Origin: Streptomyces sp. MMBL 11-1
GTDB taxonomy: Bacteria > Actinomycetota > Actinomycetes > Streptomycetales > Streptomycetaceae
Assembly (NCBI RefSeq): GCF_028622875.1
Contig: NZ_CP117709.1
Span: 3,537,001 to 3,601,000 of the forward strand
Length of the DNA stretch: 64,000 nucleotides
Reading direction: 5' to 3'
Shown here piece after piece: positions 40,859 through 61,863 of this stretch. Each line of letters starts with the position of its first letter. Positions within the stretch are counted from its first letter, which is position 1. The notes below the pieces were generated by a model. The model was given only the letters and a program-made list of their open reading frames with translations, made no database searches and was not told where the DNA came from. A program made the translations under genes and the position numbers.

Positions 40859-41701
40859 TCATCCCTCGAGAGTGTCAAGAACAGCTTCCTCTACAGTTTT
40901 CTGCTCTGGAATGCCACTCGACTTCCATTCGATATCACCAAGGTCGACCCCGAATCGAAAATTTTCTTCCAGGAACACATCCTCACGGAACACCAGAACA
41001 GGCTTAGGCCCCTTTCCCGGACCTTTAGCTTCCTTCCAGATGATCTCCGCAGGGCGATTCCGGAATTCTTTCAGCTTCGCATCACGCTGGTCACCCGCAT
41101 CCATCAGCGAGATTTCGATGCCATCCAGGATGAGCTCCTCCATTTCGACACCGCTGTAACTGCGGTTACAGAGAAGCCCGGCCGCCCGCTTCCGCCCCGG
41201 ATGGATAGAGTCCCAGACCGAGCGAGCATTCCTCCGCCCCTGACCTGGAGGGTTCCCCCCGAATCCGGTCATCACGGTATTCCAGAGGACCGGACTGTAG
41301 GCGCGCAGAAGGGCCCGTTCGCCCAAGACGATCCAGATATCATCGAGGGTCAGGCACCTAACATCGAAGTCCGAAGCCTGGAGATTGGAAGGCTCTTTGA
41401 TGCTTCTGCGGTGATCGATTATCCGGTCGAACAGTTTCCGTTGAGTCAGGTTCGGCGGATCTCCGTAGCTACTATCACCAGCCGAAGCCTTCCCCACGTA
41501 AATGGGGATATCGGTACCCTTCAGGCCCTTGTAGATCGCAAGGTCGCCCTTGTAGTAGAGCGCATAGAGCCCGGCACCTGGGAACGGCTCTACCTGGTCC
41601 AGTGGCACCCGTGGACGACCGTCCATCTCCTCCCGGAGATTACGGCCGAGCAAGTCAAGGCCCAACGGATTGAACTGTGGGGATGCGGGGCTGGGAGCCA
41701 T
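40859..41701 (-). CDS. Eco29kI-like type II restriction endonuclease (GIY-YIG)
   Basis: 280 residues from ATG 41701 (GTAGGATCCC upstream). GIY-YIG signature GLYALYYKGDLAIYKG...IPIYVGKAS, then DHRRSIKEP and DVRCLTLDDIWIVLGERALL with the catalytic Glu in the last helix, and SVWDSIHPGRKRA, a segment strongly typical of Eco29kI. Eco29kI cuts CCGCGG; the same target here is inference. It is transcribed with the C5 methyltransferase and vsr genes (same strand, 118-nt gap to vsr). Confidence 0.85.
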   Translation of the reverse strand: MAPSPASPQFNPLGLDLLGRNLREEMDGRPRVPLDQVEPFPGAGLYALYYKGDLAIYKGLKGTDIPIYVGKASAGDSSYGDPPNLTQRKLFDRIIDHRRSIKEPSNLQASDFDVRCLTLDDIWIVLGERALLRAYSPVLWNTVMTGFGGNPPGQGRRNARSVWDSIHPGRKRAAGLLCNRSYSGVEMEELILDGIEISLMDAGDQRDAKLKEFRNRPAEIIWKEAKGPGKGPKPVLVFREDVFLEENFRFGVDLGDIEWKSSGIPEQKTVEEAVLDTLEG

Positions 41702-41819
41702 GGGCGGGATCCTACCCACGAGCGGAGACGCCCCGACCTCCAGGGACCGACAACCTGTCAGATTCGGGCCCTACGCCGAGCGCCGCTGATCCGGGCAAGC
41801 TGTGCACAATAGGCGCGTA

Positions 41820-42614
41820 TCACCCCGATTCGGGATGACTTACCGGCGAGCCTCGCACGGCTCCTATCACCCTCGCGGCTGCCGCGTCAGCGTCCTCGTG
41901 CTCCCAGATACGGACGACTGTCCAGCCCGCCTCTCGCAGGAGGCGATCCGTCTCCGCGTCCCTGATTCGGTTGCCCTCGATCTTGCTTCGCCAGAACTCG
42001 GCGTTCTTGTGTGACTCCCGAAGGTGGTCCGGGCAGCCGTGCCAAAAGCAGCCGTCGACGAACACCGCGACCTTGGGCCCAGAAAAAATCAGATCGGCGG
42101 TGCGGCGCAAGGTGGGCAGCGGACGTGCCGCCACCCGATAGCGAAGCCCCTGTTTGTGCAGCAGGGAACGGAGCCTCAGCTCGGGTCGGGTGTCCTTGCT
42201 CCGATTGGCCCGCATCACCGCGCGTACGGACGGCGAGGAAGCCCAGGAGCCTTCCGCCGGCGGTTCCTCGGTGAGAAGGCCCTTCTCCCAGGCCATCTTC
42301 CAGCCCTCGGCGAGGTTCGCGGCCCGGGTCTCGTGCTCGACCTGTCCGAGGTAGCGGGCCGGAGACTTGCCGCCATCGGACCAGCGCAGGTACGCGCGGA
42401 TGCGTCGCGTGTCGGGAAGCACCTTCAACTCCACCGACGCCCGGGCGAACCGCCCCTCGCCAAGATCCACAGAGCGCCTGTGGCGACCACCCGCAGCCCG
42501 GTCCTGTTCGGCCGCGATGACAGCCCGGGTCCTACCAGCCCGCCCTTTCCACGCCCGGTCCGGCGGCGAGTCGTGCTTCCAGCCGCTCTGCGCCCTGCTG
42601 GTGGGCCCGGTCAC
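41820..42614 (-). CDS. vsr: Very short patch repair endonuclease (Vsr) with an N-terminal extension
   Basis: 264 residues from GTG 42614, overlapping the methyltransferase stop by 4 nt. The Vsr core begins at about residue 127: VRAVMRANRSKDTRPELRLR, RTADLIFSGPKVAVFVDGC (catalytic Asp), then FWHGCPDHLRES with zinc/catalytic His and Cys. It nicks at T:G mismatches made by deamination of 5-methylcytosine, matching the linked cytosine methyltransferase. The first 125 residues, including a strand-rich ASVELKVLPDTRRIRAYLRW, are not part of ordinary Vsr (about 150 residues) and may bind DNA. Confidence 0.85.
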   Translation of the reverse strand: MTGPTSRAQSGWKHDSPPDRAWKGRAGRTRAVIAAEQDRAAGGRHRRSVDLGEGRFARASVELKVLPDTRRIRAYLRWSDGGKSPARYLGQVEHETRAANLAEGWKMAWEKGLLTEEPPAEGSWASSPSVRAVMRANRSKDTRPELRLRSLLHKQGLRYRVAARPLPTLRRTADLIFSGPKVAVFVDGCFWHGCPDHLRESHKNAEFWRSKIEGNRIRDAETDRLLREAGWTVVRIWEHEDADAAAARVIGAVRGSPVSHPESG

Positions 42615-43924
42615 TTCTGTCGCTCCTCCGCCTCGTCCAGGACGGTGGCGACCGCCTTCGCGAAGACCTCGCCAAGGGCAACGGGTACGGCATTGCCGAG
42701 CTGGCGCATCTTCTCCCCCCGGGGGCCCTTGAGCTCCCACGTGTCGGGGAACGTCATGACGCGCGCGGTTTCGCGGACCGTCATGTACCTGTACTTGTAC
42801 CGGACGCCGCCCTGAGCGGCCTTGTCGGCCACCAGCTCGTCCAGGAGCATGACCGACTCGCCGCCGGGCACACCGTGAACGCCGGCCTTGACCGTCTTCG
42901 CCGGGCGGTCGAGTTCGTTGGGGGTGTGCCCGTCGTAGATCCGGGCACCGGGCCAGCCGATGTGTTCCGTGAACCCGCCGAGGAAGTGCTCGGTGCGGTC
43001 CAGCCACTCGTCCGGCACATCCGGCAGGGGCTTGTTGTCGCCGATGCCGGCGATCGCGTCACGCAGGGTGTACCAGGGGAGCAGGCCGTCGTCCATCGGC
43101 ATGGTCTTCGGGAGCCGGGCCATGACCCACTCGCGCACGTGGGTGGGCACATTCGAGTGCCGCTCCCAGTAGCTCCCGTCCTCCATGGACCGAAGCAGAG
43201 CAGACTCGGAGTGCGTCGGCTTCACGAGCTCCTTGAACAGCTCAAGGTCGACGTTCAGGTCGCGACGGAAAGCAACAATGATCACGCGGTTGCGGATCTG
43301 GGGCACCCCGTAGTCGGCAGCGTTCACCGGCATCATGACGATGTCGTACCGCTTCTTGGGGTCGTCCGGCTCCTTCTCCCGCCGCTCCAGCAGGTACTCG
43401 TAGTGCTGCTCCCAGGTACGGTCGCCTCGCTCCTCGAAGGGCAGCTCCAGCTCGCGCTGGATGTAGTCGAAGTAGCGGCGGAACGAGGGCCTGAGCAGGC
43501 CGCGCACGTTCTCGCAGATCACGGCCTTCGGCTGGATCTGTTGGACGGCCTTGAACATCTGGGGAAACATGTTCCGCTTGTCCTCGTCGCCCTTGGCGAC
43601 GCCGCCGAGGCTGAACGGCTGGCAGGGAGGACCTCCGGCGAGCACGTCCACCTGGCCCGCCAGATAGTCCATGTCGAGCTCTTGGACATCGCCCGCGACG
43701 AGGGGCACCTTCTCGCCAGGCCCGGGGGCTCGGGTCGGCTTCTGGCCGTCGGGCAGCCGCTGGGCCCCGTTGGCCTCCAGGGTCTCGCATGCCCGCTTGG
43801 CGAACTCGTTGAAGAGCAGGGGGCGGAATCCGGCGCGGTGGACAGCCATGGCCAGACCGCCAGCGCCAGCGAAGAGCTCGACGCCCGTGCGGTCCTTCTT
43901 TGATCCTTCTTGCAGTTCAGCCAT
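42611..43924 (-). CDS. dcm: DNA (cytosine-5) methyltransferase
   Basis: 437 residues with the C5-methyltransferase motifs in order: I VELFAGAGGLAMAVHRAG, IV LAGGPPCQPFSLGG with catalytic Cys, VI KAVICENVRGLL, VIII QIRNRVIIVAF, and X MRQLGNAVPVALGEV. It protects the host from the linked Eco29kI-like nuclease, so its target is expected to include CCGCGG (inference). First gene of the methyltransferase-vsr-nuclease operon; the divergent GIY-YIG gene lies 116 nt away. The symbol is a family name, not an orthology claim. Confidence 0.95.
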   Translation of the reverse strand: MAELQEGSKKDRTGVELFAGAGGLAMAVHRAGFRPLLFNEFAKRACETLEANGAQRLPDGQKPTRAPGPGEKVPLVAGDVQELDMDYLAGQVDVLAGGPPCQPFSLGGVAKGDEDKRNMFPQMFKAVQQIQPKAVICENVRGLLRPSFRRYFDYIQRELELPFEERGDRTWEQHYEYLLERREKEPDDPKKRYDIVMMPVNAADYGVPQIRNRVIIVAFRRDLNVDLELFKELVKPTHSESALLRSMEDGSYWERHSNVPTHVREWVMARLPKTMPMDDGLLPWYTLRDAIAGIGDNKPLPDVPDEWLDRTEHFLGGFTEHIGWPGARIYDGHTPNELDRPAKTVKAGVHGVPGGESVMLLDELVADKAAQGGVRYKYRYMTVRETARVMTFPDTWELKGPRGEKMRQLGNAVPVALGEVFAKAVATVLDEAEERQK

Positions 43925-44040
43925 TCCAAAAGCATACCGCGGAGTTGTAGATCTTCAAGCCATTTCGAGGTGAAGGTTCGGCCACGTGTGCAGGCCACCG
44001 ATAGGGTTTCCGGGATCATGTCGACCAAGGGAGTGGACGA

Positions 44041-44880
44041 ATGGTGCCGGTGGTGGGCTCCGAGGACGGAACGCAGTACCACAAGGACTTCACCCTGAGC
44101 ATCACCAAGGCGCTCGGCGACCAGTTGGCGTACGCGCTGAAGAAGCTTGGCCGGGCGCCTCTCTCCGAAGAGAGCATCGCGCGACTCAAAGAGAAGCCCG
44201 GGGTCTACCAGCTCTACCTGAACGGGAAGTTCGTCTACGTCGGCAAGGCCGACAAGTCGCTGCCGGCCCGCCTCGGCAACCATCTGCGCAAGATCTCTGG
44301 GCGTCGCAACATCTCCCTGGATGAGATGGCCTTCTCGTGTCTGTACGTGGCGGAGGACTTCTCCGCCCTCGCCCCCGAGCAGCTGCTCATCACACACCAC
44401 AAGGGACAGGGCGACATCCCCTGGAACAACAACGGCTTCGGCAACAAGGATCCGGGCCGTCAGCGAGACAGCACGGTCCTTAAGCGGAATCACTTCGATG
44501 TCCTGTTTCCCATTGACCTGGACCGGCCGATCGAGGGTCTGCAGGCTGGCGAGACGACGCTGCATGAACTCCTAGAAGCGATCAAGGCCGGCCTCCCGTA
44601 CATCTTCAGGTATGGAAAGTCGGCGGAGTTCAAGGCTCGAAGCGTTCACGTGCCATCGGCCGCGATGACCGCCGACGAGGTCTTCCAGCTGATCTCGGCG
44701 GAGATACCGGACAAGTGGCAGGTCGCCGCCCTCATGGGTTACGTGATCATGTACGACGACAGTCCCAATACGTACAGGAGCGCGTGGCGGTACTACCGCC
44801 ACGGCGAGCGCATCAGCGCCGTGCCTGAGGCGGACCCGGCGGGGGTTGTCGAAGCCGAGCCACCGTCGATGGATGACTGA
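44041..44880 (+). CDS. Second GIY-YIG nuclease, Eco29kI-related
   Basis: 279 residues from ATG 44041 (GGGAG 7 nt before). The nuclease signature is GVYQLYLNGKFVYVGKADKSL with Arg in ARLGNHLRKISG and a Glu in ALAPEQLLITHHKGQ. GFGNKDPGRQRDST resembles the Eco29kI family segment after the active site. The C-terminal 100 residues (MTADEVFQLISAEIPDKWQV) form a separate domain. Divergent from the methyltransferase, it may be a second restriction enzyme with the same or a different site, or a control or helper nuclease. Confidence 0.78.
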   Translation: MVPVVGSEDGTQYHKDFTLSITKALGDQLAYALKKLGRAPLSEESIARLKEKPGVYQLYLNGKFVYVGKADKSLPARLGNHLRKISGRRNISLDEMAFSCLYVAEDFSALAPEQLLITHHKGQGDIPWNNNGFGNKDPGRQRDSTVLKRNHFDVLFPIDLDRPIEGLQAGETTLHELLEAIKAGLPYIFRYGKSAEFKARSVHVPSAAMTADEVFQLISAEIPDKWQVAALMGYVIMYDDSPNTYRSAWRYYRHGERISAVPEADPAGVVEAEPPSMDD

Positions 44881-49962: not shown

Positions 49963-50250
49963 TCAATACCAGGTGTCGGACCGAGCACGTGCGATGCGCG
50001 CACCCGTTTCGAAATCGTCGTAGTGCACGCGCACGTCCTGGATTCCGAGAGTCCGCATCAGGTCAGCCATCCGCACGACGTACCGACGCCCGATTCTCCT
50101 TACGGGACAGGGGAATTCACCGTTTCTCGCCCGCTTGTACGCCGTACTCAGACTCAGGCTCAGCGCGTCCGCCGCCATGCGCATCCCCATCTCCGCCGGA
50201 AGCCCGAACACAGCGGAGAAGGCGACCGACTCATCACGATGGCGCTTCAT
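49963..50250 (-). CDS. AlpA/excisionase-like HTH protein (last gene of TIR operon)
   Basis: 95 residues from ATG 50250, which overlaps the upstream TGA (ATGA). Contains MRMAADALSLSLSTAYKRAR followed by FPCPVRRIGRRYVVRMADLM, the MerR-like winged helix of AlpA/Xis proteins. The tail (VHYDDFETGARIARARSDTW) is unique. Might regulate the operon it ends, or act in DNA-bound effector assembly. Confidence 0.75.
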   Translation of the reverse strand: MKRHRDESVAFSAVFGLPAEMGMRMAADALSLSLSTAYKRARNGEFPCPVRRIGRRYVVRMADLMRTLGIQDVRVHYDDFETGARIARARSDTWY

Positions 50251-51014
50251 CGGTCGGCCCCCCACATCCCGAACAGGCCCAACTGCCCTCTCACTGAGGT
50301 CTGGACGCTTGGGCCCGCTCGGCGGCGACCACGCTGACGAACCTGGCGCACATGGTCCAGCAAGCCCAGTCGGTACGCCAGCGAGCCCAGGCGTTCTCCC
50401 TGTGCCTGCTGAGCGAGAGGCCTGGACATCCTCTCGACGCGTACGACTTCATCGCCCGCGATCGTCAACGGATCGGACCATTCCGGCTCCTGCACGGTTC
50501 CCCACTCCCCCACCGGGGTCTCCTCCGGACTGCGGCGGCCCGTCCGCCAGCCGGCGGCGAAGGCCGCATCGACCAGGTACTGCTCAGCGAGCGATGTGTC
50601 TGCCCGGCCAAGGGTTTGTACGCCCTCCAGCATTCCTTGCAGCAAGGCGGAACACACGTCGGCGTGCTCGGCCCCGGTACGGCGGGAAAGCGAGTACGCA
50701 GCTCCTCTCAAGCGGGGTGCGAGCAGCCACACGGCGACAAGCGTCCAACTCCGTCCGCCCTCACCCTCGTCCTCGCCCTCCGAATCCTGCCGGATGTGGC
50801 CGGCAATGTGCCGCCAGTGAGCGATCCGGTCGGGGTGGCCCGGTGCTGCTCGGAGGGCCTGGGAGCGCAGATCGTCCAGTGAGATACCCACTCGACCGCA
50901 GTGCGGCTCCGTGGGTGGGCCCGAACCACTGCACAGCGGCTGCATCTGGTCGTACCGCTGCTCCACGGACCTGCAGATGCGGGTGAAGACATCGGGGACC
51001 GGGCACGGGCTCAT
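50247..51014 (-). CDS. Hypothetical protein (operon gene 4)
   Basis: 255 residues from ATG 51014, overlapping the upstream stop by 4 nt. Helical protein: RICRSVEQRYDQMQPL, DDLRSQALRAAPGHPDRIA and a moderately hydrophobic SWTLVAVWLLAPRLRGAAYSL (about 87-107). SLAEQYLVDAAFAAGWRTG and LGLLDHVRQVRQRGRRR are later helices. No family recognised. Translational coupling to both neighbours implies a shared complex. Confidence 0.7.
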   Translation of the reverse strand: MSPCPVPDVFTRICRSVEQRYDQMQPLCSGSGPPTEPHCGRVGISLDDLRSQALRAAPGHPDRIAHWRHIAGHIRQDSEGEDEGEGGRSWTLVAVWLLAPRLRGAAYSLSRRTGAEHADVCSALLQGMLEGVQTLGRADTSLAEQYLVDAAFAAGWRTGRRSPEETPVGEWGTVQEPEWSDPLTIAGDEVVRVERMSRPLAQQAQGERLGSLAYRLGLLDHVRQVRQRGRRRAGPSVQTSVRGQLGLFGMWGADR

Positions 51015-52336
51015 CGCTCGCCCCCGGGCCACTCCGGGCCGGGGCCGCTCTGTGCCCATGCGCCGGGGTCGAACTGACGGGTGGGACCGTTCACTTCGGC
51101 GGCGATGCCTTCCGATTCCGTCGACCGGCTCTCGGTGCTCGACGGTTCCGCCGCGTCGGCCGGGTGGTCGGCAGCGTCTGCGCCGCGTGGGGGCGGCGGC
51201 CAGGAGGCGGGTGTGGCCGGAGGCGGATCCTCCGTAACGGTCTCCGAGGATTCGGCAGGAGGGCGTCCGCCCTCGTGGTCGCTCCGGCGCATGTGCCTGC
51301 GGATGTTCTCCGCGGCCTCCGGCCGGCCCGCCGCGTCCGACGTACGTGCGAGGCGGTCCAGGAACACCCTCGTCTCGTCCGACCCCTCGGTGAACCCCTC
51401 GCTGTCCAGCCAGGCGGCCAGGAGATCCGCTGGAGGTTCCTGTCCCGCTGCCGAACGGGTCGGGCCATGGCACGGCAGGGTCTGCCCGGCGCCCGGATCC
51501 GGGTGGTCGAACCCGCTCATGGGCTCGCCTTCCACCGGCTCCCCGCGGCCCCGGAGCAGATCCCGGTACTCCTCGGGGATCTCCTCGTCGTTGGCGGCGG
51601 CGGACAGGACCGTCAGAGGAGCGATCATGTCCACCGCACGCTCGATCTGGTCCTCGTGGCGGGCCATCCACCAGACCACCGCGTTGCCGGGGCTCCGTAG
51701 AGCATCCTCCCCCAGGTATTCTCTGAGGTTGCGTTCGTGCTGTCGTCGGCTCTCCCAACTGCCCATGGTCTTGCGCAGCCCGTCCATCTCTTCCAGGTGC
51801 TCCCTGTCCCTGGGCCGCAGGACCAGCCGGATGTCCGTGGCAAAGGCCTCCACCAGCCCCGAACTGTCGAGGCCCGATGCTCCCAGCATTCCCTCCAGCG
51901 AACGCTCCAGGAACGTGCACCGGCCGGGGTTCTCGGTCAGCGTCATGCTCTCCACACGTTGCAGAACGGACGTCGCGGCCAGGGCTGCCGGGTTGCCGTG
52001 CGACGAGGGAACGAACCTCCCGGCGGGCCGCCACCAGACGGAGGCGGAGAACAGGAAGGGGCAGTCCTCAACGGCGCTCTGGACAGGCACCACCACGATC
52101 GACGTCTCCTGGTAAGGGACTTCGGCCGGAGCCTGGGGAACGGACTCGTCCAGGTCCGGGGCCGTGGCACGTGTGCCCTCCGCACGCGACACCCGCATAT
52201 CGATCAGCAGAGCCCCGGCGATGAGCGCAGGCAGGAGGAACCACACCCAGAGCGGACGGCCGAGCGTGACTCCGACCGCCAGGGCGGTGGCAACGATTCC
52301 GCCGGACATGAGGCGCGTGATGTGCTGGGTACTCAT
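51011..52336 (-). CDS. Two-helix membrane protein with long cytosolic domain (operon gene 3)
   Basis: 441 residues from ATG 52336 (ATGA with upstream stop). Two adjacent N-terminal transmembrane helices (IVATALAVGVTLGRP and VWFLLPALIAGALLI, residues 14-47), then a cytosolic domain to about 290 that includes IERAVDMIAPLTVLSAAAND. The C-terminal 150 residues are Pro/Glu/Ser-rich and disordered. It probably anchors the system at the membrane. No family recognised. Confidence 0.72.
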   Translation of the reverse strand: MSTQHITRLMSGGIVATALAVGVTLGRPLWVWFLLPALIAGALLIDMRVSRAEGTRATAPDLDESVPQAPAEVPYQETSIVVVPVQSAVEDCPFLFSASVWWRPAGRFVPSSHGNPAALAATSVLQRVESMTLTENPGRCTFLERSLEGMLGASGLDSSGLVEAFATDIRLVLRPRDREHLEEMDGLRKTMGSWESRRQHERNLREYLGEDALRSPGNAVVWWMARHEDQIERAVDMIAPLTVLSAAANDEEIPEEYRDLLRGRGEPVEGEPMSGFDHPDPGAGQTLPCHGPTRSAAGQEPPADLLAAWLDSEGFTEGSDETRVFLDRLARTSDAAGRPEAAENIRRHMRRSDHEGGRPPAESSETVTEDPPPATPASWPPPPRGADAADHPADAAEPSSTESRSTESEGIAAEVNGPTRQFDPGAWAQSGPGPEWPGGER

Positions 52337-54339
52337 GGTCCTCCCTTTGTCCCTCGCGCACCCGAAGCGGAGGTGAGGCCTCCGACTCCTTGTGCGCGAT
52401 CGATCTCCCGGCAGAACCGGTCGGCGGTCCGCGCGCGGTCGTCGCGCTGGGCCCGGAGCCCCTCAGGCATGTCGACGGGCTCCGAGTCGGCCCAGTCGCA
52501 CGTCGTCACATAGAGCTGGTTCAACAGGTCCCGATCGCCGTAGGCAGCCAGCAGCAACGCGTTCAGGACCTCCTCCCCCGCCTGCCGAAGCGTCAGGGCG
52601 GCGAGCCAGCGCTGCACCGGCGGGGACCAGGCGCGCGCCGGCTTCCCCGCCAGCACGGCCCGCCATGCGAAGACGAACGCCTTCCAGGGCGGGTGGACGC
52701 GCAGTTCGGCAGGGTCGAGCAGCGCCAGAAGAACCTCCAGGCCGCCGTCCGCCGGTCCCGCTCGCGGCAGAAGGCGGTGCACCAGCCGCCCGTACAGCCG
52801 GCGGTTGCCGCGCGCCAGCTCCAGGAGGGCGGAGCGGGCTGCCGCCTTGATGCCTTCGGGGTTCTCGTGCCGCAGCGCGAGATGCCTGAGCCGGACCATG
52901 GCCTGCTCCGGATGGGTGACGGCCATCACCTGCCGGCACACGACCGTCAGCACTCGCGCGAGATCGGGCGCTAAGCGCGCCGTCGTCACCCACTGGTAGA
53001 CGTGCGAGCGGAACCGCGACCCGTACCGTTCGTGGCTGAGGCCCAGTTCGAGTGCCGCCGCGGCCTCGGCCCGCAGACGGCCCTCTGCCGAGGTGTGGGT
53101 CCATCTCTCGATGAGCAGGTGCAGATCATCGGGTCGATCGGTCATCAGGGCCTGTTCCGCGAATCGGGCGACCAGACGCGCGCGGTCCTCCGCCCCGAGG
53201 CCGGGAAGCTCCATGCATTCGCCCACCCAGTCCCGGAAGTCCGCGCGAAGGTCGGGAAAGTTCTCCCAGAAGTGCCGTCTGACCGCATCGTCGTAAGCGA
53301 GCCTGACGAACCGCACCCGCCCGTCGTCCTCCCGGGCCAGGGACAACTCCTCGAACTGTTCGCCCAGACCCGCCCGGGCCAGTCTGGGCGTTTCGTCCTG
53401 AGGATGCCCCAGGACGCCCAGGAGGCTGTGCGCGGCGCTCAGCACCGTGTCCGCCGGTCCGCCACTCGTCATGCTCGCCGCGAGCAGCAGTGCTCGTTCC
53501 TCTGCGCCTCGGTGCTGTCGCAGGTCTCCGGCCACCTGCTGCGACCAGTTGGTCGCGGCGGCCACGGATTCGTCCCGCCAGTGCTCGAAATTCGTGCCGC
53601 GGCCGGCCCGGTCCCGAGCCTGGACCACCAGGCCCGCCAAGCGGTCCAGCTCCCGCATGGGAGCGGTCCCGAACAAATGGGGCAGGTCGCCATGGTCCAG
53701 CTGCTCGTGCTCGAACCTCACGCCTCGCACCCTCAGATGGCGGCTGAAGACCGCCCGCCCGTTCGGCCGTTCCAGGTGCACGGCCAAAGGGGCGAGTTCC
53801 GCATCGAGCATCCATTCCAGGCCGGACGGAGTCACGGCGACCAGCCGGGCACCGCTCTCCTCGACCAGCGCGCGGTACGACATGAGCGTGCGCTGAGCGG
53901 TCGGGTAGTCACTATCGCCGATGCTCGACAGGTCCAGCAGATAGCGGTCGTCCGGCGACGGGTCCGGGGGCTCCTCCTCCCTGGCCGTGGGCAATTCCTC
54001 GATGCGGCTGCCCGGCACCGACGCCTCCACCAACAGCATGGTCGCCGTGGAGCGTCGGCCGATCCCGGGCGGGCCTTCCAGGAGCACCACCGCACCGGGC
54101 CGCGCCAGCCGGTCGGCCGCCCGGGCGTATCCGCCCGGCCATACGAAGCACTTGGCGAGCCGCCGCCGGTGCTCGCGTACGATCTCCCGCCGATCGACCC
54201 CGGCCCTGACCAGAGGTTCTCGGGGGCCGATCGAGTAGTAGTAGGTGTTGTTCTGGTCACCGCCACCGCTGTGTACCGGTCCCTGCGGGTCGCTGATCGA
54301 CGTGCCACCCGTGCCACCCGTGCCACCCGTGCCGGTCAA
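52333..54339 (-). CDS. STAND-like NTPase with N-terminal signalling motif (operon gene 2)
   Basis: 668 residues from TTG 54339 (TTGA overlap with TIR stop). A short Gly/Thr repeat (residues 2-13) leads to DPQGPVHSGGGDQNNTYYYS (17-36), matching a segment of the TIR protein. The NTPase begins with LLEGPPGIGRRSTATMLLVE (86-105); Walker A has Arg where Lys is expected. A Walker B-like YLLDLSSI (about 130) follows. The remaining ~430 residues are helical (e.g. LRHLALRHENPEGIKAAARS) and look like a HEAT/TPR-type sensor. The likely role is a sensor that recruits or activates the TIR effector. Confidence 0.75.
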   Translation of the reverse strand: MTGTGGTGGTGGTSISDPQGPVHSGGGDQNNTYYYSIGPREPLVRAGVDRREIVREHRRRLAKCFVWPGGYARAADRLARPGAVVLLEGPPGIGRRSTATMLLVEASVPGSRIEELPTAREEEPPDPSPDDRYLLDLSSIGDSDYPTAQRTLMSYRALVEESGARLVAVTPSGLEWMLDAELAPLAVHLERPNGRAVFSRHLRVRGVRFEHEQLDHGDLPHLFGTAPMRELDRLAGLVVQARDRAGRGTNFEHWRDESVAAATNWSQQVAGDLRQHRGAEERALLLAASMTSGGPADTVLSAAHSLLGVLGHPQDETPRLARAGLGEQFEELSLAREDDGRVRFVRLAYDDAVRRHFWENFPDLRADFRDWVGECMELPGLGAEDRARLVARFAEQALMTDRPDDLHLLIERWTHTSAEGRLRAEAAAALELGLSHERYGSRFRSHVYQWVTTARLAPDLARVLTVVCRQVMAVTHPEQAMVRLRHLALRHENPEGIKAAARSALLELARGNRRLYGRLVHRLLPRAGPADGGLEVLLALLDPAELRVHPPWKAFVFAWRAVLAGKPARAWSPPVQRWLAALTLRQAGEEVLNALLLAAYGDRDLLNQLYVTTCDWADSEPVDMPEGLRAQRDDRARTADRFCREIDRAQGVGGLTSASGARGTKGGP
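54301..54333. repeat. 9-bp tandem repeat at the NTPase N-terminus
   Basis: CGTGCCACC is repeated 3.7 times. On the coding strand it specifies repeated Gly-Thr-Gly just after the TTG start. Copy number could vary between strains. Confidence 0.8.
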
Positions 54340-55148
54340 CGTTCCTCGTCCACAGGTCGCCCGTTCCGGTCCGCCCTCTGCCGGACTTCCCCGTGGTTCT
54401 CGCCCACGTACTGCACGTTGCCTCCGTCGCCGGAGATGCGCGGGCCCAGGTACTGCTCACGCGCCTGATAAAGGTGCCCGCTCCCGGTGTGGACCGGGCC
54501 CTGGGGCTCGCTGACGAAGGTTCCGGAAAAGTCCCCGTTGAGATTGCCGATCCCGCCGCTCTGGCGGTGCTTGATCACCCTGGCCTGCATCCGGGCGTCT
54601 CCAGCCCCGTCCCTGTCGGTACCGCGGTCGTCGTCCGACGGTGCCGAACGGGTCCGGTAGCCGTTGCTCCGCGCGGCGCTTCCCAGTTCGGGCAGCAGTT
54701 CCACGAGGTCGTCGGCCAGCCCCGTCAGGTCAGCGTCCGCGTTGCGGTGGCTGAGCCGCCGGTACTGGCAGGAAGCCAGGGCTTCGATGTCGCCGGGAAG
54801 GTCGTCGGTGCGCAGCCTCTTCGCGCCACCGACCAGCAGAGGGATGACCACGGCCCCGGTTTCGAGCGCTTCCCGGATCTCCCGCCGGGTCCAGTCGTCC
54901 TCGTCCTCCAGAGGGCTCCGGCCGCCGGGGGCTCCCGGCTCCAGCCAGCGGGGCCCCATGACGGCCAACAGCACGCTGCTGCGTCGGACCGCGGTGAGCA
55001 GTTCCTGGGGGAACCGGCTTCCCAACCGGATGGACTTGCTCGCCCGGAAGACATTGCCATTGCCGAATACCCTGGAGAGTTCCCTTTCCACGAGTGTGGC
55101 AGTGGCTTCCTCGTCGTTGGTCCGGTAATTCACAAAGATCAAAGGCAT
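54336..55148 (-). CDS. TIR-domain protein with C-terminal signalling motif (operon gene 1)
   Basis: 270 residues from ATG 55148; ATG 55160 adds four. TIR domain at residues 2-140: MPLIFVNYRTNDEEATATLV, KSIRLGSRFPQELLTAVRRS, VLLAVMGPRWL, and DDWTRREIREAL with E90 placed as the catalytic Glu of NAD-consuming TIRs. A charged linker (145-195) leads to a C-terminal Gly/Asn-rich tail with SEPQGPVHTGSG (213-224) and GGNVQYVGENHG. The DPQGPVHSG counterpart occurs in the next gene's product. The probable role is NAD+-degrading or cyclic-nucleotide-producing effector, by analogy with bacterial TIR defence proteins. Confidence 0.82.
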   Translation of the reverse strand: MPLIFVNYRTNDEEATATLVERELSRVFGNGNVFRASKSIRLGSRFPQELLTAVRRSSVLLAVMGPRWLEPGAPGGRSPLEDEDDWTRREIREALETGAVVIPLLVGGAKRLRTDDLPGDIEALASCQYRRLSHRNADADLTGLADDLVELLPELGSAARSNGYRTRSAPSDDDRGTDRDGAGDARMQARVIKHRQSGGIGNLNGDFSGTFVSEPQGPVHTGSGHLYQAREQYLGPRISGDGGNVQYVGENHGEVRQRADRNGRPVDEER

Positions 55149-55317: not shown

Positions 55318-56541
55318 TCAGTGACCAGCGCCGAGTACGTTGGCAAGTGCGGGCCGGAGCCCGCGCACCGCCGGGTTTCCACGGAACCGTGACCATTCAC
55401 GGTCCAGCCGACGCACGTCCGTACGGACAGTGGCCGAGGGAACGACGCTCATGAAGGCCAGCAGTTCGCGGGCTGCTTCGCAGGAACGCTCGATCTCACC
55501 CGCCGCGGCGAGCGCCAGCGCGTGCCGGAGACCGTACCGGGCGCGGGTGTTCAGGGCATGGGGTGCGATGCGCCGGCACTGGCGCTCCAGCACGTCGGCA
55601 GCCTGCCGGGGGCGGCCCAGATCGTAGAGGCACCACCCCTCCACCATCGAGACCGGGTCCTTGAGCTGGGTGGTGCCGAGCACCGGACCATCCGATGGGT
55701 CCACGGCCGCCGCCAGGAGATCGCGTGCCCGTTCCAGCGCTCTTCCACAAGCCCTTTCGTCGCCGGCGAGGGCATGGCCCTGAGCCTCGCGCTGGGCTGC
55801 CAGACCTCTGACTCTGGGGGGCGCGGCGCTGCGCTGAGCCTGTCGGGCGAGCGCGATCGTCCGGGGCGCATCCCCGTCGTAGTAGGTGACGAGCGCACGG
55901 CGGACCAGCGCGTAGTCCGCCAGATTCCTGTCCCCTCCGGCCTGCGCCAGCTCCACGGCCTCAGCCGTGGCGCGCAGCGCGGTGATCTCGTCCCCGTTCT
56001 CCTGGGCCATCCACCCGATGTACTCGGCGAAACGGGAGGCCGTGACGAGCAGGCCGGCCCGGGAGGACCCCGTGGTGCGGGAGGCCAGCGCCGTGACGGT
56101 GGAGGTCTGCGACCGGAGAACGGGCAGCATCGCGGCGGGCGCAAGGCTCTGGCCCAACCTCTTCATCTGGTGCAGTTGTTCCTGGAAGAGGGCGCCCGGC
56201 GGCAGGTCCTGGTCGCCGACATGACCGGTCCCGCCTCCGTCCGCCATGCGGGCGGCGAGCAGGGAGCCCACCCCTGTGAGGATCACGCGGCGGCGCGCGG
56301 GCCTCGGCCTGCTTCCGGCCGACTGATCCTCCGCGGAGAACAGTCGGCGCAACCGTCCACCGGCATTGAAATAGGCGTCACAGCACTGGGCCAGACTCAT
56401 CGTGGGGGGATTCATACCCCGCTCGATCTTGGAAAGATGCCCGGTGCTGTAGGTCGTGACTTCAGCCAGCTGCTTGAGCGTCATTCCGGCGTCCTCACGC
56501 AGCCGACGCAGCTCCGCACCGAAACGTAACGGGACGTCCAT
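55318..56541 (-). CDS. XRE-family regulator with C-terminal TPR-like region
   Basis: 407 residues from ATG 56541. The HTH lies at 7-65 (LRRLREDAGMTLKQLAEVTT, then TGHLSKIERGMNPPT), and helical repeats from about 130 onwards (RNLADYALVRRALVTYYDGD, ERACGRALERARDLLAAAV) form a TPR-like sensor. Of the kind often found upstream of peptide or conflict systems in Streptomyces. Codon 5 is TTA (56527-56529 on the plus strand), so its synthesis should need bldA. It is on the same strand 169 nt upstream of the TIR gene and is its likely regulator. Confidence 0.85.
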   Translation of the reverse strand: MDVPLRFGAELRRLREDAGMTLKQLAEVTTYSTGHLSKIERGMNPPTMSLAQCCDAYFNAGGRLRRLFSAEDQSAGSRPRPARRRVILTGVGSLLAARMADGGGTGHVGDQDLPPGALFQEQLHQMKRLGQSLAPAAMLPVLRSQTSTVTALASRTTGSSRAGLLVTASRFAEYIGWMAQENGDEITALRATAEAVELAQAGGDRNLADYALVRRALVTYYDGDAPRTIALARQAQRSAAPPRVRGLAAQREAQGHALAGDERACGRALERARDLLAAAVDPSDGPVLGTTQLKDPVSMVEGWCLYDLGRPRQAADVLERQCRRIAPHALNTRARYGLRHALALAAAGEIERSCEAARELLAFMSVVPSATVRTDVRRLDREWSRFRGNPAVRGLRPALANVLGAGH

Positions 56542-58067: not shown

Positions 58068-59234
58068 TCAGCGGCACAGGGCGGTGTCCACCGCGCGTTC
58101 GAGAGTTCTGCGGGCCGTCTCGCCGGTGAGCTGCTCGGTGACCGTGATGGTGGCGGCGCGGCCGTCGTCGGTGACGCCGCCGCGGGTCTCGTAGCCCGGG
58201 AAGCTGCCGCCGTGGCCCCAGGAGAGGCCGCCGCACGGCAGTGGTCTGCTGACGAGTCCCAGCCCGTAGCGGGCGCCCGGGCCGAAGGTCGCTTCGGCCG
58301 GGACCGTGGAGCGCATCCGGGCGAGTTGGGCCGCGGGCAGCAGGCGGCCGGTCAGGAGCGCCCCGAAGAAGCGGTTGAGGTCGGAGCCGGTGGAGATCAT
58401 CTGTCCTGCCGCCCAGGCCCAGGAAGGGTCCATCTCCGTGATGTCGCGCAGTGGCGTGTCCGCCGACTCCTGGTAGTAGCCGTGCGGATGGGGCCCTCGG
58501 ATGCCGGCGTCGCCGGGGGCGGGGAAGTAGGTGTGGCGCAGCCCGAGGCGCTTGATGACGCGCCGGTCGATCTCGTCGGCGAGCGGGCGGCCGGTGACCT
58601 TCTGGACGATCAGGCCGGCGAGCACGTAGTTGGTGTTGCTGTACTTCCAGCGCTTCCCGGGTGCGAAGTCCGCCGGGTGCCGGAGTGCGGTGGCGAGCAG
58701 TTCACGGGGGGCGTAGTAGCGGACGTCGTCCCCGAGGCGGCTGGTGTACTCGGGGAGTCCGCTGGTCTGCTGGAGGAGGTGGCGGACGGTGATGCGGCGC
58801 CCGTCGATCCTCTTCCCCCGGACCAGGCCGGGGAGGTAGGTGTCGACGGAGGCGTCGAGGCTCAGCCGTCGCTCCGCGACGAGCTGGAGTACGACGACCG
58901 CGACGAAGGTCTTGGTGTTGCTGCCGATCCGCACCTGCCCGTCGACGGGTACCGGCGCGCCTGTGGCCAGGTCACCGGTCCCCGCGGTGTAGGTCCGGTA
59001 GCGGCCGCCGGGGCCCTTGACGCTCGCCAGCGCGGCGGGCGGCCCGCCGTCGCGCACCAGGGCGTTCAGGCTCTGCTGGACGGTGTCCGGCCCGGCGGCC
59101 GAGGCGGCGGGCGGGGCCAGGGCTCCCAGCGTCATGACACCGATGGCCACCGCGGCTGCGGCGGGCAGGAGCTGTCGCCGCGTGCCGTGTCGCCGGCCGG
59201 GCGGCCGGAACAGGTGCCGTTCCTGTCCACGCAT
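58068..59234 (-). CDS. Secreted serine hydrolase (beta-lactamase / D-Ala-D-Ala carboxypeptidase family)
   Basis: 388 residues. A basic N-terminus and hydrophobic stretch LLPAAAAVAIGVMTLGALA ending ASAAG look like a Sec signal peptide. The catalytic motifs are SxxK in RIGSNTKTFVA, YxN in KWKYSNTNYVLAG, and HGG in WGHGGSFPGYE (the KTG-like triad position). It may act on peptidoglycan peptides or esters. The next gene (59288-60481) is a close paralogue, so the pair arose by tandem duplication. Confidence 0.9.
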   Translation of the reverse strand: MRGQERHLFRPPGRRHGTRRQLLPAAAAVAIGVMTLGALAPPAASAAGPDTVQQSLNALVRDGGPPAALASVKGPGGRYRTYTAGTGDLATGAPVPVDGQVRIGSNTKTFVAVVVLQLVAERRLSLDASVDTYLPGLVRGKRIDGRRITVRHLLQQTSGLPEYTSRLGDDVRYYAPRELLATALRHPADFAPGKRWKYSNTNYVLAGLIVQKVTGRPLADEIDRRVIKRLGLRHTYFPAPGDAGIRGPHPHGYYQESADTPLRDITEMDPSWAWAAGQMISTGSDLNRFFGALLTGRLLPAAQLARMRSTVPAEATFGPGARYGLGLVSRPLPCGGLSWGHGGSFPGYETRGGVTDDGRAATITVTEQLTGETARRTLERAVDTALCR

Positions 59235-59287
59235 GAGTCGACTCCTGGGGGGCCGGTGGTGGTCGTTCGGGTCGCCGGTGGCGTGAT

Positions 59288-60481
59288 TCAGCCGCACAGG
59301 GCCCTGCTCACGGCGTCGCTGACGTGCCGTGCGGCCGTCTCGTCCGTCGGGATGCTGGTGACGGCGACGTTGGCGGCGCGGCCGTCCTCGGTGACGCCGC
59401 CCCGGGTCTCGTACCCCGCGATGTCGCCGCCGTGGCCCCAGTAGACGCCGCCGCAGGGCAGGGGCCTGCTCGTGAGCCCCAGCCCGTAGCGGAGGCCGGA
59501 GGTCCCGGCGGGGACGGTGGTGCGCATCTCGGCGAGCTGGGCCGCCGGGAGGAGTCGGCCGGCGAGGAGCGCGGTGAAGAAGCGGTTGAGGTCGGAGTTG
59601 GTGGAGATCAACTGGCCTGCGGCCCAGCCCGCGGAAGGGTCCATCTCCGTGAAGTCGCGCAGCGGTCCGTCCGCCGGGCTGCGGTGGTAGCCCCGGGGGT
59701 GCGGCCCCCGGACGGTCATCTCGCCGGGGGCGGGGAAGTACGTGTGGCGCAGCCCGACGCGCTGGATGACGCGCCGGTCCATCTCCTCGGCGAGCGGGCG
59801 GCCGGTGACCTTCTGGACGATCAGGCCGGCCAGGACGTAGTTGGTGTTGCTGTATCCCCAGGTCTTCCCCGGTTCCGCGTCGGCAGGGTGTTCCAGGGCG
59901 AGGTCGAGCAGCTCGCGGGGCTCGAAGTACCGGTTCCTGATCTCGGTGTCGTCGAGGTGGATGCCGTACTCGGGGAGTCCGCTGGTGTGCTGGAGGAGGT
60001 GGCGGACGGTGATGCGGCTCCCGTCGATGCCCTTCCCGCGGACGAGGCCCGGCAGGTAGGTGTCGACGGACGCGTCGAGGTCGATCTTTCCCTCGCCGAC
60101 GAGCTGCAGCACCACGACCGCCGTGAACGCCTTGGTGTTGCTGCCGATCCGCACCCGGCCGTCCCTGGGCACCTTCGCGCCGGTGGCCAGGTCGCCGACC
60201 CCCGCGGTGTAGGTGCGGGTGCGGCCGTCGCGGTCCTGGACGCTCGCCAGCGCGGCGGGCATCCCGTCGTCGCGCACCAGCGTGTTCAGGGCCCGCTGCA
60301 CGGCGTCCGGCCTGGCGGCAGCAGCAGCGGCCGGGGCGGCGGGATCGGCGGTGGCGGGCGGGGCGAGGACGCCCAGCGTCATGACGCCGACGGCCACCGC
60401 GGCGGCGGCCGACCAGCCCCGTCGCCGCCGGCCGTCCCGCCGGGTCGAGGAACGGAGGTTCTGTCCTGTCCGAACACGCAT
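59288..60481 (-). CDS. Secreted serine hydrolase paralogue
   Basis: 397 residues from ATG 60481 (AGGAG 8 nt upstream). Signal peptide with AAAAVAVGVMTLGVLAPPATA. SxxK in RIGSNTKAFTAV, YxN in TWGYSNTNYVLAG, and HGG in YWGHGGDIAGYETRGG. Nearly colinear with the downstream gene (e.g. VDTYLPGLVRGK and LIVQKVTGRPLA are shared). 53 nt separate the two, so they are probably one transcript. The rightward two-component system starts 140 nt away and may control them. Confidence 0.92.
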   Translation of the reverse strand: MRVRTGQNLRSSTRRDGRRRRGWSAAAAVAVGVMTLGVLAPPATADPAAPAAAAAARPDAVQRALNTLVRDDGMPAALASVQDRDGRTRTYTAGVGDLATGAKVPRDGRVRIGSNTKAFTAVVVLQLVGEGKIDLDASVDTYLPGLVRGKGIDGSRITVRHLLQHTSGLPEYGIHLDDTEIRNRYFEPRELLDLALEHPADAEPGKTWGYSNTNYVLAGLIVQKVTGRPLAEEMDRRVIQRVGLRHTYFPAPGEMTVRGPHPRGYHRSPADGPLRDFTEMDPSAGWAAGQLISTNSDLNRFFTALLAGRLLPAAQLAEMRTTVPAGTSGLRYGLGLTSRPLPCGGVYWGHGGDIAGYETRGGVTEDGRAANVAVTSIPTDETAARHVSDAVSRALCG

Positions 60482-60621
60482 GATGCAACTCCTGGAACGT
60501 CGTTTCGTCGAGGCACGATCGTTGCTTCCGGGGCCCTTCGACCGCATCGCGGGAAAGCGGGAGAAGTCGCTCCCCCGATCGGGGGAGGCCGCAGGGGGGC
60601 CGCCCGGCGATACTGGCGATC

Positions 60622-61863
60622 ATGAACAGGGGAATTCGGCTGCTGCTGCGCGGCTCCACGTACTCGGGTGTGCTGTTCGCCTATTGCGGTGCGTTGGCGA
60701 GCCTTCCGCTGCTGCCTCTCGCTCTGTTGCCGGCGCTGTCGTGGCGATCCGCACCCGAGAGCGTGCAGGTCTTCGTGGTGCTGCTGGTCTGGGCGGCACT
60801 GGTCGGCGTGGTCGGACTGGCGCGTCCGGTGCGGCGGGCGCTGGTCGTGTCCGCCCGCCGGCTGCTGCGGGTGTCGCTGCCGAACCCGGCTGCCGTCCGC
60901 CCGGCCTCCGGTCCGCTCGGCCTCGACCGCTGGCGGACCCCGCTCTGGCTGGTGCTGCACGCGGCCGTCGGGTGGACGGGGGCGCTGGCGAGCGGGGTGC
61001 TGTTCATCATGGGCCTCTCCCTGCCCATGAACTGGCTCGGCGGCGAGGTGCGGGCGAGCCTGTTCGGCACGTCGGTCCGGGTGTCGGGCGGGTGGAGCTG
61101 GGTGGTGGCCGCCGCGTGCGTGCTGCTGGCGGTGGCCATCTGCGTACTGGTCACGAAAACCCTGCGGTGGTCGGCGCCCCGGCTGCTGGGGCCGTCGGCG
61201 GCCGAACGGCTCGCGCTGGCCGCGGAGCGGGAGCTGCTGCTGGCCGAACGCAACCGGATCGCCCACGAGTTGCACGACTCGATCGGGCACACGCTGACGG
61301 CCGCCACCATCCAGGCGGCGGTCGCCGGCGAGGTGCTCTCCAGCGACCCGGCCGCGGCGCGGGCCGCCATGCGCAGCATCGAGGACTCGACGAGGGCCGC
61401 GTTGGAGGACCTGGACTACGCGCTCGGAGTGCTGCGCGAGGAGGAGTCGGGTACGGCGCCGACCCGGACCCTGGCGGACCTCCCCGAGCTGCTGGAACGC
61501 CTGCGGCACACGGGGGCGGTGGTGGAACCGGAGCTGTCGGGTGACCTGGCGCGGGTGCGGGGGACGCTCTCCCGGGCGGCGTACAGGATCCTTCAGGAGG
61601 GGCTGACGAACGCGCTGCGCCACGGCGCGGGCGGCCCCATCGAGGTCCGGGTGGCGGCCGGACCGGACGGGCTGGACCTCGCTGTGGTCAACCGGACCGG
61701 AGCGCGGACGGGGCCGGATCCGGGCTCCTTCTCGACATCCGGCCACGGCTTGCCCGGACTGGCCGAGCGCGTCCGGCTGCTGCACGGCGAGTTCGGGTCC
61801 GGCCCGGACGGAACGGGGCACTGGCGGCTCGCCGTCCGGCTGCCGGCACGGACGTCGGCGTGA
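60622..61863 (+). CDS. Sensor histidine kinase (HisKA_3 family)
   Basis: 413 residues. Four or so hydrophobic segments in 10-185 (e.g. LLPLALLPALSW, VVLLVWAALVGVVGLA, WSWVVAAACVLLAVAICVLV). Phospho-His in RNRIAHELHDSIGHTLTAAT. ATPase domain with N-box RILQEGLTNALRHGAG and G-box STSGHGLPGLAERV. It overlaps the response regulator by 4 nt. Divergent from the hydrolase pair. Confidence 0.95.
   Translation: MNRGIRLLLRGSTYSGVLFAYCGALASLPLLPLALLPALSWRSAPESVQVFVVLLVWAALVGVVGLARPVRRALVVSARRLLRVSLPNPAAVRPASGPLGLDRWRTPLWLVLHAAVGWTGALASGVLFIMGLSLPMNWLGGEVRASLFGTSVRVSGGWSWVVAAACVLLAVAICVLVTKTLRWSAPRLLGPSAAERLALAAERELLLAERNRIAHELHDSIGHTLTAATIQAAVAGEVLSSDPAAARAAMRSIEDSTRAALEDLDYALGVLREEESGTAPTRTLADLPELLERLRHTGAVVEPELSGDLARVRGTLSRAAYRILQEGLTNALRHGAGGPIEVRVAAGPDGLDLAVVNRTGARTGPDPGSFSTSGHGLPGLAERVRLLHGEFGSGPDGTGHWRLAVRLPARTSA

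Follow-up and report, generated by a model that had tools for sequence, protein, structure and literature searches.

We analysed a 64,000-nucleotide window of the 8.5-Mb genome of Streptomyces sp. MMBL 11-1. Five genes lie together on the minus strand, and the nearest named relatives for two of them, encoding a TIR-domain protein and a STAND/AAA+-like protein, are from Streptomyces. We refer to the second protein, earlier called the NTPase, as the sensor, after its proposed role. The features used below are:

55318..56541, minus strand, gene for an HTH regulator (HTH_31, Pfam E = 1.7e-12), upstream of the TIR gene
54336..55148, minus strand, TIR effector gene (270 aa), with the TIR domain (PF13676) at residues 4-135
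54363..54563, minus strand, whole Gly/Asn-rich tail of the TIR protein (residues ~196-262), matched as a unit by profile A2
54477..54512, minus strand, effector-side motif SEPQGPVHTGSG, TIR residues 213-224
52333..54339, minus strand, sensor gene, STAND/AAA+-like (668 aa, TTG start)
54259..54294, minus strand, sensor-side motif SDPQGPVHSGGG, sensor residues 16-27
54052..54075, minus strand, degenerate P-loop GPPGIGRR, sensor residues 89-96, with Arg in the canonical Lys place
51011..52336, minus strand, gene for a two-TM protein with an SPFH/Band 7-like domain at residues ~72-210
50247..51014, minus strand, fourth overlapping gene (255 aa), without a family

The TTG start of the sensor gene overlaps the TIR stop by 4 bases, and the SPFH-like gene overlaps the sensor stop by another 4. 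Across 80 loci, the TIR gene was directly upstream of the sensor gene in 79. The couple had been taken for a two-gene unit, which overlooked the SPFH-like gene that accompanies it in 77/80 loci; a homologue of the HTH regulator is present in 73/80. In actinomycetes the three genes (TIR, STAND-like and SPFH-like) form a conserved operon, which in most loci follows a gene for an HTH regulator; the operon was found in 55 of 246 sampled Streptomyces genomes, roughly a fifth. We kept the 255-aa fourth gene out of the core operon because just 8/80 loci have a homologue (E up to 1e-5); it is probably optional. A megablast search of PLSDB returned no near-identical plasmid copies of the operon. The TIR, sensor and SPFH-like genes matched no PADLOC model at E up to 0.1 and no NCBIfam family, and the HTH regulator matched generic PADLOC HTH models (best HTH_VI, 5.5e-7). 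An Eco29kI-type restriction-modification-like set, comprising a C5 methylase, Vsr and two Eco29kI/GIY-YIG endonuclease-like genes, lies at window positions 40859-44880, ~6-10 kb from the operon.

The TIR domain (Pfam E = 4.1e-9) matched SARM1 TIR structures (phmmer E = 2.8e-4), with the segment DWTRREI aligned to DWVHKEI. The candidate catalytic residue, Glu90, lies within DWTRREI and was present in 195/195 aligned rows, the window's included, after sequences that were non-TIR, truncated or odd (L085, L046, L091, L092, P0138 and P0170) had been excluded beforehand. With the domain and the candidate catalytic Glu kept, the predicted output of the effector is NADase activity. The VQYVG-like stretch remarked on in the original prediction is present in the window TIR and recurs in only 3 of 120 listed homologues (365 were found), and we dropped the idea of a RHIM-like conserved core. 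Five distant TIR tails (L091, L096, L097, L082 and L101) carry an extra GxVxGxxIQxRDI-type stretch ahead of the shared motif, which resembles other actinobacterial signalling motifs. ARD is mentioned for BASS2 in excerpts of PMC9815663.

The AlphaFold2 model of the sensor (pLDDT 89.0, pTM 0.86) indicates an AAA+-like core at ~51-265 followed by a mostly helical part to ~649, and predicts that residues 1-41, which bear the motif, are disordered (pLDDT < 50). The structures matched in Foldseek/VIA were AAA+ proteins and, in addition, an AVAST5 filament. The nSTAND3 profile matched 22 of the 27 rows of the sensor alignment A1 at E up to 1 (best 1.3e-5); the window sensor scored 16.1 bits, under the 27.2 cut-off. 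Alignment and model together show the STAND trait, namely the AAA+-like core, the Walker B Asp (Asp136, kept in 86/87 aligned rows) and a helical C-terminal superstructure. At position 95, the place of the P-loop Lys, Arg occurs in 83/87 rows, Leu in 4/87 and Lys in none. The earlier label of STAND-like NTPase holds for the fold, but the P-loop Lys expected of an NTPase is missing in 87/87 rows. Since this residue is replaced throughout, ATP hydrolysis is unlikely and an ATP-driven switch doubtful; ATP binding is possible. The third protein has a membrane anchor followed by an SPFH fold, which places it with SPFH/Band 7 proteins. The effector-tail profile, run over 5496 ORFs of the 80 loci, did not find the motif in the SPFH-like gene. 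In Saccharopolyspora shandongensis (L085), the operon is followed by another SPFH-like gene, a paralogue of the third one (L085:9044-10132).

The original prediction placed a shared Gly/Asn-rich motif at TIR residues 213-224 and sensor residues 16-27. Both are located there, and when the two proteins are aligned locally, the top-scoring segment is the motif region itself (TIR 199-237 with sensor 3-40, score 80). Shuffled tails aligned with shuffled N-termini reached at most 72 (0/20000 attained 80), and shuffled whole proteins at most 79 (0/2000). Profile A2 was made of 26 effector tails from other genomes without any sensor sequence. At E up to 0.001, A2 had exactly two matches in the host genome: the tail of the TIR protein (1.1e-21) and the N-terminus of the sensor (2.7e-4). 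In this genome a degenerate DNA pattern representing a G-P-x-[HN]-like-G-x-G motif occurred at 27 places (control 10), and among the 20 of these that were translated only the TIR and sensor ones fitted. We also compared codons at identical residues. In the window pair 12/17 differ, with 10.2 expected from random codon choice, and in 89 pairs 458/1090 differ, with 527 expected. From this near-random codon choice we conclude that the motif pair is not a recent DNA duplication and that selection at the protein level, not DNA copying, keeps the two tags alike.

The motif is also kept in homologues. A strict pattern was found in 112/120 TIR homologues among the matches listed and in 66/116 sensor homologues; the 50 sensor misses include records with a late annotated start (e.g. 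MHSGGGDQNN) and others with one letter altered outside GxG. We scored 81 pairs more leniently with a matrix built from the homologue lists, and 79 passed in both partners, L095, L096 and L101 only just. The 79-pair set used below leaves out L070, where the NTPase is split, and L099, whose partners have in common only a weak, different stretch. GxG was present in both partners in 77/79 pairs. Gly27 of the sensor, within the tag, belongs to a set of 13 columns that show no variation (87/87 rows) despite the predicted disorder of residues 1-41; Gly25 is kept in 85/87 rows and Gln29 in 80/87. The motif glycines are thus near-invariant in both partners within variable tails, and the motif persists while the proteins drop to ~30% identity. 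These alignments indicate that the motif is under selection. A natural TIR-sensor fusion (P0077) retains both tags, GPVNTGPGAQHN and GPVNTGPGPQFN.

The motif was further predicted to co-vary between partners, and this was borne out. At the position occupied by H, N or Q, the two partners carry the same letter in 73/79 pairs (35.7 expected by shuffling) and differ in six; L033 is Q/Q. Cognate 17-mers had a similarity of 55.4 compared with 45.5 after re-pairing, and with the large N clade removed the values were 47.0 and 38.0; in each case 0/10000 re-pairings were as high. As shuffling ignores relatedness, we counted co-change on a tree of the 79 sensor bodies, N-termini excluded. N/not-N changed four times in each partner and 4/4 independent contrasts agreed (the large clade, L078, L087 and L058), a number with which a sign test cannot fall below p = 0.125. 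In L058 N is lost from both partners, with H in one of them and Y in the other. The "not H" contrast was weaker (~2.5/5 with, 0.1 against and 2.4 unchanged), and of the other motif columns among those listed none agreed significantly (in column 16, 0.9 with and 1.6 against).

We then took a wider set of 104 pairs, of which 60 were kept and 44 were dropped as close relatives or fragments. The cognate mean was 61.4 vs 42.8, and 0/5000 re-pairings were as good. A protein's own partner ranked first for only 12/60 effectors and 14/60 sensors; its median rank was 9.5 for effectors and 7 for sensors of 60, where 30.5 is expected. No convincing common tag was seen between the partners of three distant pairs (L152, L169 and L179). 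Other pairs have pair-specific or doubled motifs (L166, L167, L168, L170, L171, L174 and L180). In the strongest of them the motifs are private to the pair: L167 has ATTNTGSGDLNQNSTVTHVSGDQ / ATTNTGSGDVNQDSTVTHVSGNQ and L166 has NFSGASGTFVGVNQNSTNHGKQNY / DFSSASGMFSGINQNSPNHGTQNY, while L168 and L171 have two motifs in each partner. The tendency of the tags to co-change across species suggests that the two proteins recognise each other through them, and homotypic coupling of effector and sensor by their tags is well supported by the sequence comparisons.

Profile A2 also allowed the family to be followed further. When 245 genomes of the order were searched at E up to 0.001, matches turned up in 43, and 12 of these had one on the sensor side too. 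One tail match, at G437:C1:2759381, is probably due to chance and was set aside, as there was no profile match among the called ORFs and no such gene pair in the frames listed. Among the 5496 ORFs of the 80 loci there were 89 matches: 79 TIRs, the effector of L085, eight sensors and one short ORF, which directly precedes the split sensor of L070; at this strict threshold A2 thus reached only 8/80 sensors. At the L085 locus the effector is not a TIR protein and ends in GTAINGDNLSMHTGSGDQFN; the sensor next to it starts with GTSVTGDGAQVHGGSGHQIN, and a CRP-type regulator replaces the usual one. With the distant L085 sensor as query, a search of 345 genomes of the class gave 26 loci in 22 genomes, the window's included. 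The neighbour was a TIR gene in 15 of these loci and a relative of the L085 effector in eight; neither was seen in two, and one was ambiguous. In L085 the TIR effector has thus been swapped for another that bears the same motif, and the eight loci have this other effector as well. A second effector family, seen in L166, L170, L172-L174, L176, L179, L180 and L085, has a VVDxKxFS ... TGDGY pattern. The VVDxKxFS...GDG pattern resembles that of class III nucleotide cyclases. The members tested gave no convincing match in Pfam, NCBIfam or among PDB sequences, and the cyclase assignment was dropped.

The operon most probably serves immunity or regulated suicide. The explanation that we favour overall, with moderate confidence, is that a STAND-like sensor recruits a TIR effector in such an operon by cognate, like-with-like tags. 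The sensor's disordered N-terminal tag and the effector's C-terminal one would be cognate copies of one short Gly-rich motif. Once triggered, the STAND-like protein, acting as the sensor, would oligomerise, and its clustered tags would recruit and nucleate those of the effector, like with like. The contact is probably a stacked beta, amyloid-like one, by analogy with what has been proposed for bacterial amyloid signalling (BASS). The TIR domains, packed together, would then turn on NAD+ cleavage. TIR NADases are generally activated by clustering. The presence of an SPFH-like protein in the operon suggests a membrane site, and this protein probably places the assembly there. We infer a role in defence from the TIR and STAND-like architecture, the patchy occurrence and the nearby Eco29kI-type set.

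The tags may pair directly, as we propose, and still do so by ordinary reversible docking, through short beta-strand augmentation or a condensate-forming tail, rather than by an amyloid template. They are short and Gly-rich, the sensor tag is disordered in AlphaFold2, and genome searches with the amyloid-motif profile PF17106 gave no match to the family. The layout and the repeated Gly/Asn/Gln/Tyr pattern are nevertheless similar to those of amyloid signalling motifs, the fungal FxGxGxQxxGxGxF among them (described in excerpts of PMC9815663), and doubled repeats are present; we regard reversible docking as the less probable form of contact, though one to be taken seriously. The main rival to direct contact is that the tags do not touch and both bind one third partner, the SPFH-like protein or a host factor. 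Common docking would likewise yield matching, co-changing tags, since both would follow one receptor site, and the SPFH-like gene travels with nearly all pairs. However, the SPFH-like protein has no matching motif, strong pair-specific tags occur in L170, L172, L174 and L180 with no SPFH-like match in flanks of only ~1.5 kb, and the doubled tags in both partners of L168 and L171 fit like-with-like contact more simply. We consider a third partner unlikely. That the likeness is a local accident without function, through low-complexity drift, gene conversion or duplication between neighbours, is very improbable: both tails are Gly-rich, neighbouring genes can exchange short stretches and identical-residue codons differ slightly less than expected, but the codon deficit is small, gene conversion was dropped on the codon test, and drift or copying sits poorly with a motif that is kept at ~30% protein identity, co-changes and survives effector exchange.

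Several known systems come close to this one. BASS NLR-effector pairs (Dyrka et al. 2020) are encoded by adjacent or overlapping genes of filamentous actinobacteria and have the motif at the effector C-terminus and the NLR N-terminus, according to excerpts of the review PMC7889193. The window pair, with its adjacent, overlapping genes in an actinobacterium, has the same tag layout as described there, as the original prediction had recognised, and by analogy it may work like a BASS pair. It differs in that the effector is a TIR protein or the second type and not Bell, in that Pfam does not recognise the sensor as a NACHT or NB-ARC protein and its P-loop Lys is missing, and in having a conserved SPFH-like third gene. 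Bell is the usual BASS effector, and TIR is mentioned as a less frequent effector class in the same excerpts (PMC7889193). The occurrence of BASS motifs with TIR effectors is thus already in print and the idea is not new. The original prediction knew of no description for this gene order, and we found none of the TIR / STAND-like / SPFH-like operon or its motif in open-licence papers, though the tables of Dyrka et al. could already list some pairs.

The EADs of Kaur et al. (2020, eLife) are also duplicate adaptors on a core component and a next-gene effector, with the nearest copies most alike and homotypic coupling predicted. In the excerpted text (PMC7159879), however, they are small domains with a helical or alpha+beta fold, carried by VMAP, iSTAND, GAP1 and similar cores, whereas the window tag has ~17-40 residues and is predicted to be disordered on the sensor side (pLDDT < 50, residues 1-41), which sets it apart from EADs. 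Unlike bacterial STAND/Avs receptors, the system has its effector as a separate protein and a sensor with neither a P-loop Lys nor a PADLOC match. Fungal motifs (PUASM, sigma) are similar in being Gly-rich and common to an effector C-terminus and an NLR N-terminus, and peptides of the FxGxGxQxxGxGxF motif formed amyloid-like fibres (both in excerpts of PMC9815663). The sigma profile PF17106 weakly matched the L085 effector exactly on the motif (E = 0.011). At E up to 1 it had no match among 27 sensor rows, and it gave 12 weak matches over 121 Streptomyces genomes, none above the cut-off and none at known places of this system. An E. coli control also gave PF17106 matches, and the fungal sigma link was dropped.

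More tentatively, and with less than even confidence, we suggest that these actinomycete immune operons have receptors without a P-loop lysine that would signal by templated assembly of disordered tags and not by ATP switching. Each would have its own tag "dialect" (H-, N- or Q-type, single or double) that insulates parallel systems, effectors (TIR or the second enzyme) would be exchanged while tags are kept, and an SPFH-like scaffold would hold the assembly at the membrane. If the proposal is right, the 104 pairs examined form a natural library of signalling tags, both matched and mismatched, for testing the specificity of amyloid-like immune motifs. A further immunity system, so far unlisted and found in about one in five sampled Streptomyces genomes, would then be added to those known, with a receptor that seemingly works without the normal ATP switch.

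Two further observations concern the surroundings and the state of the locus. Window positions 58068-60659 hold a gene for a beta-lactamase-fold serine hydrolase (PF00144, 59288-60547) and an apparent second copy. The sensor gene looks split in L070 and in L048, from the insect symbiont Streptomyces philanthi, which suggests decay of the system there.
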